DNA of 64,000 nucleotides from Pseudobythopirellula maris. Its GTDB lineage: Bacteria; Planctomycetota; Planctomycetia; Pirellulales; Lacipirellulaceae. This document shows, piece after piece, positions 15,224 through 55,717 of the stretch (within the stretch, counting starts at the first letter, position 1; every line of letters starts with the position of its first letter). The notes under the pieces were generated by a model, which saw only the letters and a list, made by a program, of their open reading frames with translations, did not search any database and had not been told where the DNA came from. The translations under genes and the position numbers were made by a program. The stretch spans positions 722,279-786,278 of the forward strand of contig NZ_SJPQ01000002.1 in NCBI RefSeq assembly GCF_007859945.1. The letters are read 5' to 3'.

Positions 15224-15916
15224 ATGAATTTCGCTTTCCACAAAGCTAGTAAAGTCTTGATTGCAGCGTTCGTCCTGATGGCGGTTTCAACCGCCCAGGG
15301 TTCGTTGCTGTTCACGTTCTCCGATTCGACGCTGGCGACCGAAATGGTCGTCGAGCAAGCGGGCGACGATCTGAAGTTCACTGTCTCGATCGTCGACTCG
15401 GTCAACACGGGCGATCTGCGCGGCGTTTACTTCCACGTGGCTAACGAATCGCTTCTTTCTGGTCTCAGTGCGACCGGCAGCCCAGGCACGGTGCTCGGCA
15501 ACGCACAAACGTTTTCCGCCAACAACGTAGCGAACATGGGAGGCGGCAATCCCAACATCAACCCGCTTGGCCCGTTCGACGTTGGCGTCGAGATCGGTCT
15601 TGGCAACGGGGCAGGGGGAGTCGACGACTATCAGACCGCGATGTTCGTGCTCTCTCACGCGACTGCAGCGCTCGATGTGGGTACTTTCTTCCCCTCGGCG
15701 TCTAGCGTTAGCGGGGGCTTGGTTGCTGGCGTTCGCGCCCAGACGGTCGGTGCTATCGGCGGCTCGCGAAACGGCAGCTCCAAACTCGGCGCAGGCGACC
15801 CAACCCAGTATGTCTCGCCGCCGCCTCCGGGCGAGTCGCCCGAGCCGGCTACCGCCGCCATTTGGGCCATGCTCGCCACCGGCGCGTGCCTGTCGCGTCG
15901 CAGAATCATGCGATAG
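15224..15916 (+). CDS. PEP-CTERM sorting-domain protein (short)
   Basis: A 230-residue exported protein with an N-terminal signal peptide (KVLIAAFVLMAVSTAQG) and a C-terminal PEP-CTERM signal: the motif ESPEPATAAIWAMLATGACL, a hydrophobic stretch and a terminal basic cluster SRRRIMR. Such tails direct processing by exosortase and surface or matrix release. The middle part is rich in Ser, Gly, Asn and Val with beta-rich character, no catalytic motif and a Pro-rich linker before the tail. I do not recognise a specific family. The transpeptidase partner is not in the window, but an EpsI-type gene is present at 61.3-62.0 kb. Confidence 0.85.
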   Translation: MNFAFHKASKVLIAAFVLMAVSTAQGSLLFTFSDSTLATEMVVEQAGDDLKFTVSIVDSVNTGDLRGVYFHVANESLLSGLSATGSPGTVLGNAQTFSANNVANMGGGNPNINPLGPFDVGVEIGLGNGAGGVDDYQTAMFVLSHATAALDVGTFFPSASSVSGGLVAGVRAQTVGAIGGSRNGSSKLGAGDPTQYVSPPPPGESPEPATAAIWAMLATGACLSRRRIMR

Positions 15917-52619: not shown

Positions 52620-54056
52620 ATGCCCGCCACGCGTCGCGATTTCCTCCGCAGTTCCGCCGCTTACGCCGCCGGCTTTGCCGGACTCCAGCAGCTAGTGGCC
52701 GCCGGTCCCGCCTGGGCCGACGCGCTCGTCGCCATGCCCACCGGCGCCTCGCCCTACGGCGAGCTGGTGGCCGATCCCGAGGGGCTGCTCGATCTGCCGG
52801 CCGGGTTCTCGTACCGCATCATCACCCGCTGCGGCGACGTGATGGACGACGGGCTGCTCACTCCCGCGCTGCCCGACGGCATGGCGGCGTTCAGCGCGCC
52901 CGACGGTCTCACCGTGGTGGTCCGCAACCACGAGATCAGCCCCGGCGACGCCGGCCCGTTCGGCGAGAACGGCGACGAGCTCGGCGGCTTCGACCCCGCG
53001 AAGCTGTTCGACAAGGGGGCGCCAAGCAAGGAGGGAACTCCGGGCAAGCCGGTTCCCGGCGGCACGACCACGCTGGTCTACGACACGAAGCAGCAGAAGC
53101 TCGTGCGTTCCTACCTGAGCCTCGGCGGCACGCAGCGCAACTGCGCCGGCGGTCCCACGCCGTGGGGCAGCTGGATCAGCTGCGAGGAGACGACCGACAC
53201 GCCCGAGCGCACCTTCGAGGGCGACTTCCAACTCGGCGAGTCGCACGGCTGGGCGTTCGAAGTGCCCGCCTCGGCCGAGATCGCCGTGGCCGACGCCACG
53301 CCGCTCAAGGCGATGGGCCGTTTCCGCCGCGAGGCGATCGCTGTGGATCCCGCCAGCGGCGTGGTCTTCCAGACCGAGGACCTCGACGACGGCGCCCTGT
53401 ACCGCTTCCTGCCTAACATGCCCGGCAAGCTGGCCGACGGCGGCCGCTTGCAAGCGCTCGCCGTGCGCGACAAGCCGAGCCTCGACACCCGCAACTGGGA
53501 AGGGACCACGATCACGCCGGGCGACCGCTTCGAGGTCGACTGGATCGACATGGACCAGCCCGAATCGCCGGAAGACGACTTGCGTTACCGCGCGTTCGAC
53601 GCCGGCGCGTCGCGCTTCGCCCGTGGCGAGGGGATGTGGCACAGCCGCAACGAAGCGGGCGGCGGCGACATCGTCTTCGCCTGCACCTCTGGCGGCGAGG
53701 CGAAGCTCGGCCAGCTGTGGCGCTACACGCCCAGCCCCCAAGAGGGCCAGCCGGGCGAGCGCGACGAACCCGCCACGCTCGAGCTGTTCATCGAGCCGAA
53801 CGACACGAACCTGGTCCACAACGCCGACAACCTCACCGCCACGCCGTGGGGCGACCTGGTGGTGTGCGAAGACCGTTCGGACGAGGTCGTCCGGCTGGTC
53901 GGCGTCACGCCCGAGGGCCGCTGCTACACACTGGCCAACCACCACGCCAAGTGCGAGTTCTCCGGCGCCACCTTCGCCCCGGACGGCACGACGCTGTTCG
54001 TCAACATCCAGCAAAAGGGACTGACGCTGGCGATCACGGGGCCGTGGCGGTCTTAA
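52620..54056 (+). CDS. Tat-exported PhoX-like phosphatase (DUF839)
   Basis: A 478-residue protein. The N-terminus has a twin-arginine signal (TRRDFLRSSAAYAAGFAGLQ). The mature part is a DUF839/PhoX-type beta-propeller: VVRNHEISPGD near residue 100, TLVYDTKQQKLVRSYLSLGG, NCAGGPTPWGSWISCEETTD, GRFRREAIAVDPASGVVFQT followed by EDLDDGALYRFLP, WHSRNEAGGGDIVFACTSGG, HNADNLTATPWGDLVVCEDR and FAPDGTTLFVNIQ. Experimentally studied PhoX enzymes are Ca/Fe-dependent phosphomonoesterases folded before export, which agrees with the Tat signal. Many planctomycete DUF839 proteins are untested. It is followed by the repeat-bounded segment and has no neighbour of phosphate metabolism. Confidence 0.87.
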   Translation: MPATRRDFLRSSAAYAAGFAGLQQLVAAGPAWADALVAMPTGASPYGELVADPEGLLDLPAGFSYRIITRCGDVMDDGLLTPALPDGMAAFSAPDGLTVVVRNHEISPGDAGPFGENGDELGGFDPAKLFDKGAPSKEGTPGKPVPGGTTTLVYDTKQQKLVRSYLSLGGTQRNCAGGPTPWGSWISCEETTDTPERTFEGDFQLGESHGWAFEVPASAEIAVADATPLKAMGRFRREAIAVDPASGVVFQTEDLDDGALYRFLPNMPGKLADGGRLQALAVRDKPSLDTRNWEGTTITPGDRFEVDWIDMDQPESPEDDLRYRAFDAGASRFARGEGMWHSRNEAGGGDIVFACTSGGEAKLGQLWRYTPSPQEGQPGERDEPATLELFIEPNDTNLVHNADNLTATPWGDLVVCEDRSDEVVRLVGVTPEGRCYTLANHHAKCEFSGATFAPDGTTLFVNIQQKGLTLAITGPWRS

Positions 54057-54084
54057 CGTCCGCGTCGAAGAAAAAAACCTCGCC

Positions 54085-54170
54085 TGTAGGGAACGCCCTC
54101 CGCGGCGTACCTGCCCCGGGTACACGCCCACCCGCCGGGGCCCGGGCCGCCACAGAGGGCGGCCCCTACA
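54085..54170. repeat. Family C repeat, copy 1 (complete)
   Basis: An 86-base element with imperfect inverted ends TGTAGGGAACGCCCTC and GAGGGCGGCCCCTACA, and a G+C-rich centre containing CCCCGGGTACACGCCCACCC. Same length and almost the same sequence as copy 4. It begins 28 bases after the PhoX-like stop. Confidence 0.9.
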
Positions 54171-54193
54171 GAGGCATAGCGGGATCTCGAAAC

Positions 54194-54262
54194 TGTAGGG
54201 AACGCCCTCCGCGGCGTTCCTGCCCCGGGTACACGCCCACCCGCCGGGGCCCGGGCCGCCAC
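54194..54262. repeat. Family C repeat, copy 2 (right end missing)
   Basis: Matches copy 1 from TGTAGGGAAC through GGGCCGCCAC, then stops; the AGAGGGCGGCCCCTACA end is absent. It is separated from copy 1 by a 23-base spacer containing TAGCGGG and ATCTCGAAAC, also found between copies 3 and 4. Confidence 0.88.
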
Positions 54263-54370
54263 GGCTCGACAAGTCGAATCAGCCCACTGTGCTTGCCTGT
54301 GCAAAGTCTGGGCGCCATGCTCAACGCATGTGTGACGAAGGGATCCCAGCGCACCGAAGGGTTTCAAGAC

Positions 54371-54898
54371 GTGAAGACAAAGCAACACCCTCTTGGATCG
54401 GATGTGCCGACTAGCCATCGGCGTGGTAAGAGAGTTCTCGCCGCTAGCTGTCGCGTGCCTCTGCTGGTTACTTTTGGTTGTTGCATCGCGATTGCGGGCT
54501 GCACTGGCGGGCAGGTTGCAGAGATGCAATTAGGGGACATTCCCTATGGAAAAGACCTCGTCAAGCGGGGTGAAAGTATCCCGTGCACCGTAGTGAGCAT
54601 CAGCAGCCCCCACGGTGAACGTGTGTGCCTGAAAGGGAGACTGCAGGAGGGCGTTACGCTGCCAGATCTGTTTCCTGTGCTCGATACCGTCACGAGCACG
54701 AATGGCGCAGACACGATGCTAGAGCGTATGCCGGAGTCGCTGCGTAGCAGCACTAACAATAGTGGAATGTTTGTAGCTGAAGACCGGATGTGGATTACTG
54801 GATCGAATATCGGAGCAAGCAATCGGAGGATCGCGATCTATGCTGCTGAGTCACTTTCCTCATCCGAGTTCTACTTCGATTATTCTTGGGGTCTATAA
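54371..54898 (+). CDS. Putative lipoprotein, unknown, atypical composition
   Basis: A 175-residue product if the GTG at 54371 (preceded by AAGGG nine bases upstream) is used; an ATG at 54317 is an alternative. A basic region, hydrophobic stretch and lipobox-like LVTFGCCIAIAGCTGGQ suggest a lipoprotein with Cys about residue 44, though the n-region is long. The remainder (FPVLDTVTSTNGADTMLERM, MFVAEDRMWITGSNIGASNR, FYFDYSWGL) matches no family I know. Composition differs from its surroundings: three 60-base rows have 34, 30 and 25 G/C bases, while flanking genes are near 70%. It is bounded on both sides by pairs of family C repeats. Probably acquired or lineage-specific; coding status is likely, not certain. 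Confidence 0.55.
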   Translation: MKTKQHPLGSDVPTSHRRGKRVLAASCRVPLLVTFGCCIAIAGCTGGQVAEMQLGDIPYGKDLVKRGESIPCTVVSISSPHGERVCLKGRLQEGVTLPDLFPVLDTVTSTNGADTMLERMPESLRSSTNNSGMFVAEDRMWITGSNIGASNRRIAIYAAESLSSSEFYFDYSWGL

Positions 54899-54942
54899 AA
54901 TCCGATTGCCCAGCTTTTACGTCAGACACAGCCTGCCCCCCA

Positions 54943-55022
54943 TAGTCCCTCCGCGGCGTTCCGTGCGCCGGGTACACGCCCACCCGCCGGGGCCCGGGCC
55001 GCCACAGAGGGCGGCCCCTACA
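54943..55022. repeat. Family C repeat, copy 3 (left end degenerate)
   Basis: Matches the family from CCCTCCGCGGCGTTCC through the complete right end GGCGGCCCCTACA; the TGTAGGGAAC end is changed (CATAGT). Located 45 bases after the putative lipoprotein stop. Confidence 0.85.
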
Positions 55023-55054
55023 GGGGCGTAGCGGGTAGCCTTGCATCTCGAAAC

Positions 55055-55140
55055 TGTAGGGAACGCCCTCCGCGGCGTTCCTGCCCCGGGTACACGCCCA
55101 CCCGCCGGGGCCCGGGCCGCCACAGAGGGCGGCCCCTACA
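55055..55140. repeat. Family C repeat, copy 4 (complete)
   Basis: A complete 86-base copy with TGTAGGGAACGCCCTC and CCCTACA ends, 32 bases after copy 3. The spacer to copy 3 repeats elements of the copy 1/copy 2 spacer (TAGCGGG ... ATCTCGAAAC), so copies 1-2 and 3-4 are related pairs. Confidence 0.9.
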
Positions 55141-55276
55141 GGGGCTGCGCCGCCCCGGCTGAAGAACCGCGGCCACCCGATCTGAAAGCGGCCCGCCGGA
55201 CGCCGAGCCTCGCCCAATACCACGTGCGGGGTATACTGCGGAGATCGACCTTATCGCACCGCAGGACGCCATCGCC

Positions 55277-55717
55277 GTGACCACCCCTGTTTCCAAAGAC
55301 GCCGCCTGGGCCAAGGGCCTGCTCCGCGACGCCGGACTCCGTGCGACCGCCGCCCGGTCCGCCGTGCTGCGGCGGCTCTCCGAGACCTCGACCCCGCAGA
55401 GCCACGCCGAGGTGGTCCAGCACCTGAGCGACGCGGGGTTCGATCAGTCGACGCTGTTCCGCTGCCTCAACGAGTTGGCCGGAGCCGGGCTGCTGGCGCG
55501 CCTCGACCTGGGCGATCAGGTGCGGCGGTTCGAATTGACCGGGCCCGACAGCGAGGGCGTCGCCGAGCACGCCCACTTCATGTGCGTCGACTGCGGCAAG
55601 ATGACCTGCCTCGAGGGATTCTCGGTCAAGCTCAGCCCGGAGCGCGGCCCGCGTCGCAAGGCGATCGGGGAGATCACCGAGGTGCTGCTGCGAGGCCATT
55701 GCGGCGATTGCGGCTGA
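55277..55717 (+). CDS. Fur-family metal-responsive regulator
   Basis: A 146-residue winged-helix regulator. The DNA-binding half contains GLRATAARSAVLRRLSETST and the recognition-helix segment AGFDQSTLFRCLNELAGAGL. The metal-binding half contains FELTGPDSEGVAEHAHFMCV with CVDCGKMTCLEG and the C-terminal HCGDCG, that is two CxxC pairs for a structural zinc, plus His residues at EHAHF. Whether iron, zinc, or peroxide is sensed is not decidable. The GTG start at 55277 is the usual beginning; a -10-like TATACT lies at 55232-55237, 40 bases upstream. The gene converges with the HExxH gene (17 bases between stops). Confidence 0.88.
   Translation: MTTPVSKDAAWAKGLLRDAGLRATAARSAVLRRLSETSTPQSHAEVVQHLSDAGFDQSTLFRCLNELAGAGLLARLDLGDQVRRFELTGPDSEGVAEHAHFMCVDCGKMTCLEGFSVKLSPERGPRRKAIGEITEVLLRGHCGDCG

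Follow-up and report, generated by a model that had tools for sequence, protein, structure and literature searches.

REPINs are described by Bertels and Rainey (2011, PMC3116915) as REP doublets that form hairpins, and the passages of that paper on ordered clusters present these as typically made up of nearly identical tandem REPINs, including the flanking sequence. GTAG-tagged REPs are divided into 24 families in the relevant sections of PMC3733652, with Planctomycetes and R. baltica among the carriers; most of their stems measure 6-9 bp, and the spacers of the dimers mostly 20-100 bp. The same sections report dimers reiterated in tandem with flanking DNA, and RAYT genes without flanking REPs in several species. 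REP sequences also appear as targets of insertion sequences in PMC1525189.

The locus compared here with these systems lies in a window of 64,000 nucleotides, by which we mean the whole stretch of DNA analysed, from the planctomycete Pseudobythopirellula maris. R. baltica in the above we take to be the planctomycete Rhodopirellula baltica. The genome of the locus contains 59 matches to SBP_bac_10 (PF07596), a family expanded in Planctomycetes; 58 of these exceed the cut-off, and 14 control genomes had none. In the window, an 86-bp element occurs four times in a single orientation, as two pairs with a common spacer that bracket a putative lipoprotein ORF.

Layout of the locus and anatomy of the repeat

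The features of the locus are:

52620-54056, plus strand: PhoX-family gene, upstream (PF05787, E 1.6e-72)
54085-54170, plus strand: REPIN copy 1, complete, 86 bp, with two inverted GTAG-tagged hairpins, tags outward
54171-54193, no strand: spacer 1 of the tandem unit, 23 bases
54194-54262, plus strand: REPIN copy 2, last 17 bases missing
54263-54942, plus strand: low-G+C segment inside the REPIN array, 680 bp, 54.9% G+C
54371-54898, plus strand: putative lipoprotein gene, starting with GTG at 54371 or, alternatively, ATG at 54317; by eye, an IAGC lipobox whose Cys codon is at 54500
about 54943-55022, plus strand: REPIN copy 3, left end damaged
55023-55054, no strand: spacer 2 of the tandem unit, 32 bases
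55055-55140, plus strand: REPIN copy 4, complete, 86 bp
55277-55717, plus strand: Fur-family regulator, downstream (PF01475, E 1.9e-11)

The original prediction had read 54085-55140 as four 86-base copies in two pairs, with complete outer copies 1 and 4, inner copies 2 and 3 each damaged at one end, and a two-copy unit with a common spacer duplicated locally. All four copies were located, the alignment agrees on the state of their ends, and the spacers are the same apart from a 9-base indel and two substitutions (54083-54290 aligned to 54926-55146). Copies 1 and 4 differ by one mismatch across 86 bp, and the 69 bases of copy 2 match the start of copy 4 without any difference; copies 1, 2 and 4 are 0-1 bases apart over their common length. 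The left end of copy 3 shows a 5-base gap and substitutions in pairwise alignment; its identity is 95-96% to copies 1 and 4, and 87% to copy 2, where it is the other end that is missing.

Compared with elements elsewhere, the window copies are less similar. Among the 19 of 44 elements that are 88 bp or shorter, four of which come from the window, the best identity to the 15 others was 91%, reached by copy 2; copies 1, 3 and 4 attained 85-88%. In BLAST, pieces of copy 1 that are shorter reach 90-96% elsewhere, for example 93% over 57 bases at locus L016, and it is thus over the full length, and in the spacer, that the local copies stand out as alike. This near-identity, together with the common spacer, points to an origin of the four copies by local copying and not by four arrivals; given the 9-base indel between the spacers of the two pairs, the copying would have been either inexact or not very recent. 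In copies 2 and 3 alike, the damaged end is the one toward the gene, which agrees with a segment having come into the array and taken these ends away. As damaged REPINs are present at other loci, with a single recognised arm also at L019, L028, L029, L030, L047 and L110, the two damaged inner ends could be due to chance.

Each end of the element consists of a GTAG tag and, next to it, a hairpin with an 8-bp stem and a 6-base loop. The left end reads GTAG plus GGAACGCC-loop-GGCGTTCC, and the right end, read on the opposite strand, GTAG plus GGGCCGCC-loop-GGCGGCCC; the two are inverted with their tags outward. A third hairpin lies between the two GTAG-tagged ones. Hence, the element, predicted as palindromic, does have inverted ends but is not one palindrome. 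Folded as single-stranded DNA, copy 4 is predicted to form three hairpins closed by an outer stem, with a z of -3.45 and none of 200 shuffles equally stable. The element is a REP doublet, i.e. a REPIN.

Like the REPINs in the cited passages of PMC3116915, it is an inverted pair of short, tagged hairpins that forms a dispersed unit with many copies, some of them in tandem clusters with flanks. It differs from those descriptions in that the middle of the 86-87-bp form is conserved and forms the third hairpin, in its planctomycete host, and in that no RAYT was found beside this REP type. With the GTAG REPs, as far as the sections of PMC3733652 characterise them, it shares the tag, the 8-bp stem, the inverted dimers and the tandem reiteration, a likeness of layout.

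A genome-wide REPIN population and its relation to RAYT genes

BLAST of the element against its own genome gave 74 matches, some of which represent the two strands of one element, and matches are present on all six contigs; the genome has roughly fifty such REPINs. By pattern, allowing at most one mismatch, 101 half-sites were counted in this genome and none with the reversed-pattern control. The pattern was also found in 8 other genomes of the 43 in the family, with 15 half-sites at most in one genome and one or two in five.

Covariation within the stem was evaluated on 100 distinct half-sites, drawn from 50 loci of the own genome and the window. For this set two mismatches were allowed, against one in the genome-wide count, and half-sites with identical flanks entered once; missing from it are, for example, those at C1:1524785, C2:825586, C2:990003, C2:1151828 and C3:4292. 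In 90 of the 100, the bases at the two variable positions of the stem are complementary, as against 45 on average and 59 at most when the partners were shuffled 5000 times; the pairs are AA/TT (61), AC/GT (18), GC/GC (6) and AT/AT (5). The half-sites form 42 inverted pairs whose tags face outward; 17 pairs, two of which lie in the window, measure 86-87 bp, and the others 98-174 bp.

Tandem copying is also seen at other loci. At L039 (C3:391900-394200, about 957-1277), one REPIN arm with flanking DNA occurs in three tandem copies with a 107-bp period and 88-91% identity, which is a clean case of local REPIN amplification, and L016 carries a tandem duplication with flanks at a shift of about 205 bp and 91% identity. 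The mean G+C content of REPIN flanks was 67.3% over 26 loci, with single 580-bp windows as low as 55.9%; the suggestion that REPIN flanks are generally foreign DNA is not supported by this mean.

The original prediction had proposed a genome search for the element and a matching RAYT gene. Both the element matches and RAYT genes are present, but no examined RAYT is flanked by this REP. Four places in the own genome match the Y1_Tnp family; of the three scanned, two are REP-associated tyrosine transposases (NF047646) and one is an IS200/IS605-family transposase (NCBIfam), and the fourth lies at L033, a partly masked locus. Similarity searches added a RAYT-like gene at C1:47286-47822 and a RAYT fragment at C2:921-1079, which lies outside the examined set. 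With the two own RAYTs as queries, the 43 family genomes were searched, and the 32 top-ranking loci were scanned for a flanking REP along with four own loci, 36 in all, two of which repeat the same place; the hairpins listed around them were limited to perfect stems of at least 7 bases. This REP type was found beside none of the 36 RAYT loci or own Y1 loci examined. Three near-matches to the head of the REP in L068 and L094 do not run on into the stem and were discarded.

A second REP type, GTAGGATGGGTGCTCGCACCCATC, forms a GTAG hairpin at C1:47863-47886, approximately 40 bases past the RAYT-like match at C1:47286-47822 (L099, C1:45800-49400). It has 10 half-sites in the genome, with 0 in the control, and 8 of them form four inverted pairs. 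The genome thus has a small RAYT-linked REPIN population that is distinct from the larger one at this locus. RAYT homologues in two relatives lie near other GTAG hairpins, at 2162 in L072 and on both sides of the gene, at 1409 and 2056, in L078; RAYTs of different genomes thus seem to be accompanied by different REP types.

The low-G+C segment and its putative gene

The lipoprotein gene had been described as far poorer in G+C than its neighbours, with no transposase inside the repeats and no known family, and these points were borne out. The G+C content of the ORF is 54%, compared with 70.5% for phoX and fur and 68.5% for the whole window, and the lowest 580-bp G+C stretches of the window fall at this segment. 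GC3 is 0.57 for the ORF vs 0.87-0.95 in six neighbouring genes; over the codon positions, the G+C content of the ORF is rather flat (0.56, 0.50, 0.57). The lipoprotein is the sole long ORF of the segment, and no transposase was seen inside. The ORF is free of stops for 211 codons; among 1000 mononucleotide shuffles of the segment, just 2 reached this in any frame, and since this length is so rare in shuffles, the ORF is probably a gene. The GTG start is plausible, with GAAGGG upstream, and a signal peptide and lipobox can be read by eye.

Elsewhere in the window, a 230-aa ORF with an N-terminal hydrophobic stretch (15224-15916) lies over the second lowest G+C stretch. Its C-terminal end resembles what we take to be a PEP-CTERM.

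Read as 193 aa, the lipoprotein matched no family in Pfam, NCBIfam or PHROGs, and no homologue was found in 38 relatives or 391 other genomes of the phylum. Among plasmid and phage records, a 124-aa piece had no homologue up to an E of 0.1, and with a 133-aa piece three stretches in IMG/VR showed the peptide pattern, none of which was confirmed. In 395 other genomes of the order, the 124-aa piece found no credible homologue and only two weak matches (E 2.5e-4 and 1.1e-3, 29% and 36% identity), which were judged to be chance. The translations examined, covering one strand only, showed no lipoprotein-like frame; a reading frame at one of these loci is presumably a formamidopyrimidine-DNA glycosylase. 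The gene is single-copy in its own genome. A single-sequence structure model had a mean pLDDT of 42.5, too poor for a fold search. An integron cassette was considered and rejected, as 54001-55300 contains no GTTRRRY site and one RYYYAAC. Neither terminal inverted repeats nor an attC-like pair were recognised for the segment.

The interval between phoX and fur was looked for in relatives. Strong Fur relatives (E below 1e-28) are present in 10 and PhoX relatives in 13 of the 42 other family genomes, with both genes in five. The two lie on one contig in G042 (about 2.8 Mb apart) and G043 (0.3 Mb apart), and on separate contigs in the fragmented assemblies G040, G048 and G008; phoX adjoining fur was not seen in any relative examined. 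Stretches of 5-11 kb were taken at 14 places, 9 around strong Fur relatives (out of 10) and 5 around PhoX relatives (out of 13); none had phoX and fur together, and at E 1e-3 they contained neither the lipoprotein gene nor any of five other neighbours. As no uninterrupted array was found at the site, insertion of the segment into an array is not proven.

Origin of the arrangement

In our judgement the arrangement is best explained by tandem amplification of REPINs followed by the landing of a foreign-looking segment in the array, with the REPINs as the landing place and not the vehicle, and we consider this likely. The GTAG-hairpin inverted pairs would have spread genome-wide as a small element that is not autonomous, its movement presumably provided in trans by a transposase of the RAYT type (Y1/HUH). 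Here a single REPIN would have multiplied in tandem along with short flanking DNA, as is common for REPIN clusters. A segment of approximately 680 bp with the orphan lipoprotein gene would then have inserted or recombined into the array, coming to lie between two copies and destroying the ends of the two copies it touched. Both the order of these events and a horizontal origin of the gene are what we infer from the layout and composition. The locus resembles the REP targets of PMC1525189 in having inserted DNA inside REP sequences; it differs in that the segment has no transposase or recognised ends.

The original prediction had favoured a cassette bounded or mobilised by non-autonomous repeats, and had held that repeats scattered at random between genes across the genome would speak against it. 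The repeats are non-autonomous, and the four window copies sit between likely genes. REPINs are dispersed genome-wide, which in part is the scattering it had named. Given this population and the published precedents, the local repeats are ordinary members of it and do not form a boundary dedicated to a cassette. The gene and the REPIN pairs could together make up a cassette that recombines or moves, if a circle with the gene and a REPIN-spacer-REPIN piece had entered a resident pair through homologous recombination, or if a RAYT had moved the bracketed unit. Integration of this sort would leave exactly the observed complete outer and damaged inner copies. The spacer is common to both sides yet not identical, and the gene is foreign in composition. 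However, REPINs elsewhere occur without the gene, and the gene is single-copy with no credible relative in 396 genomes of the order and 392 of the phylum (own genome counted), hence without any sign of repeated movement. No evidence was found for REPINs mobilising or carrying genes, and we regard a cassette as unlikely.

It is quite improbable that the gene is instead an old orphan of the lineage, on both sides of which REPINs settled, the pairs having been made alike by gene conversion or a second local copying. The position of the window REPINs between genes would fit, no empty site is known, and low G+C could come from fast evolution, but the composition is far from that of all six neighbouring genes measured. 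The spacer common to both pairs is not part of the REPIN, which makes independent settlement very unlikely and calls for a copying event across the gene. The ORF might also be spurious and the segment a remnant of foreign or decayed DNA, which would be compatible with any of the other histories; the lack of a credible homologue, the rather flat G+C content over codon positions and the poor single-sequence fold would agree with this. The rarity of its stop-free length in shuffles, the plausible start and the by-eye signal peptide with lipobox argue against a spurious ORF, which we hold to be improbable to the same degree.

The landing of a segment in a tandem array, which we prefer, could be taken further: REPIN arrays may act as docking sites, with exogenous DNA entering through recombination between near-identical units and orphan genes thereby becoming bracketed. 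Such a general role is highly improbable in our estimate; if true, it would constitute a transposase-free route of gene acquisition. The kind of repeat is known and the arrangement has precedent, while the enclosed gene is an unexplained orphan that probably landed there. The finding would matter more only if bracketed orphan genes recur in other REPIN-rich genomes. What it contributes is a populous GTAG REPIN family of a planctomycete genome, in which the stems covary cleanly and 86-87 bp is the preferred form, together with one case of foreign-looking DNA inside a REPIN array.
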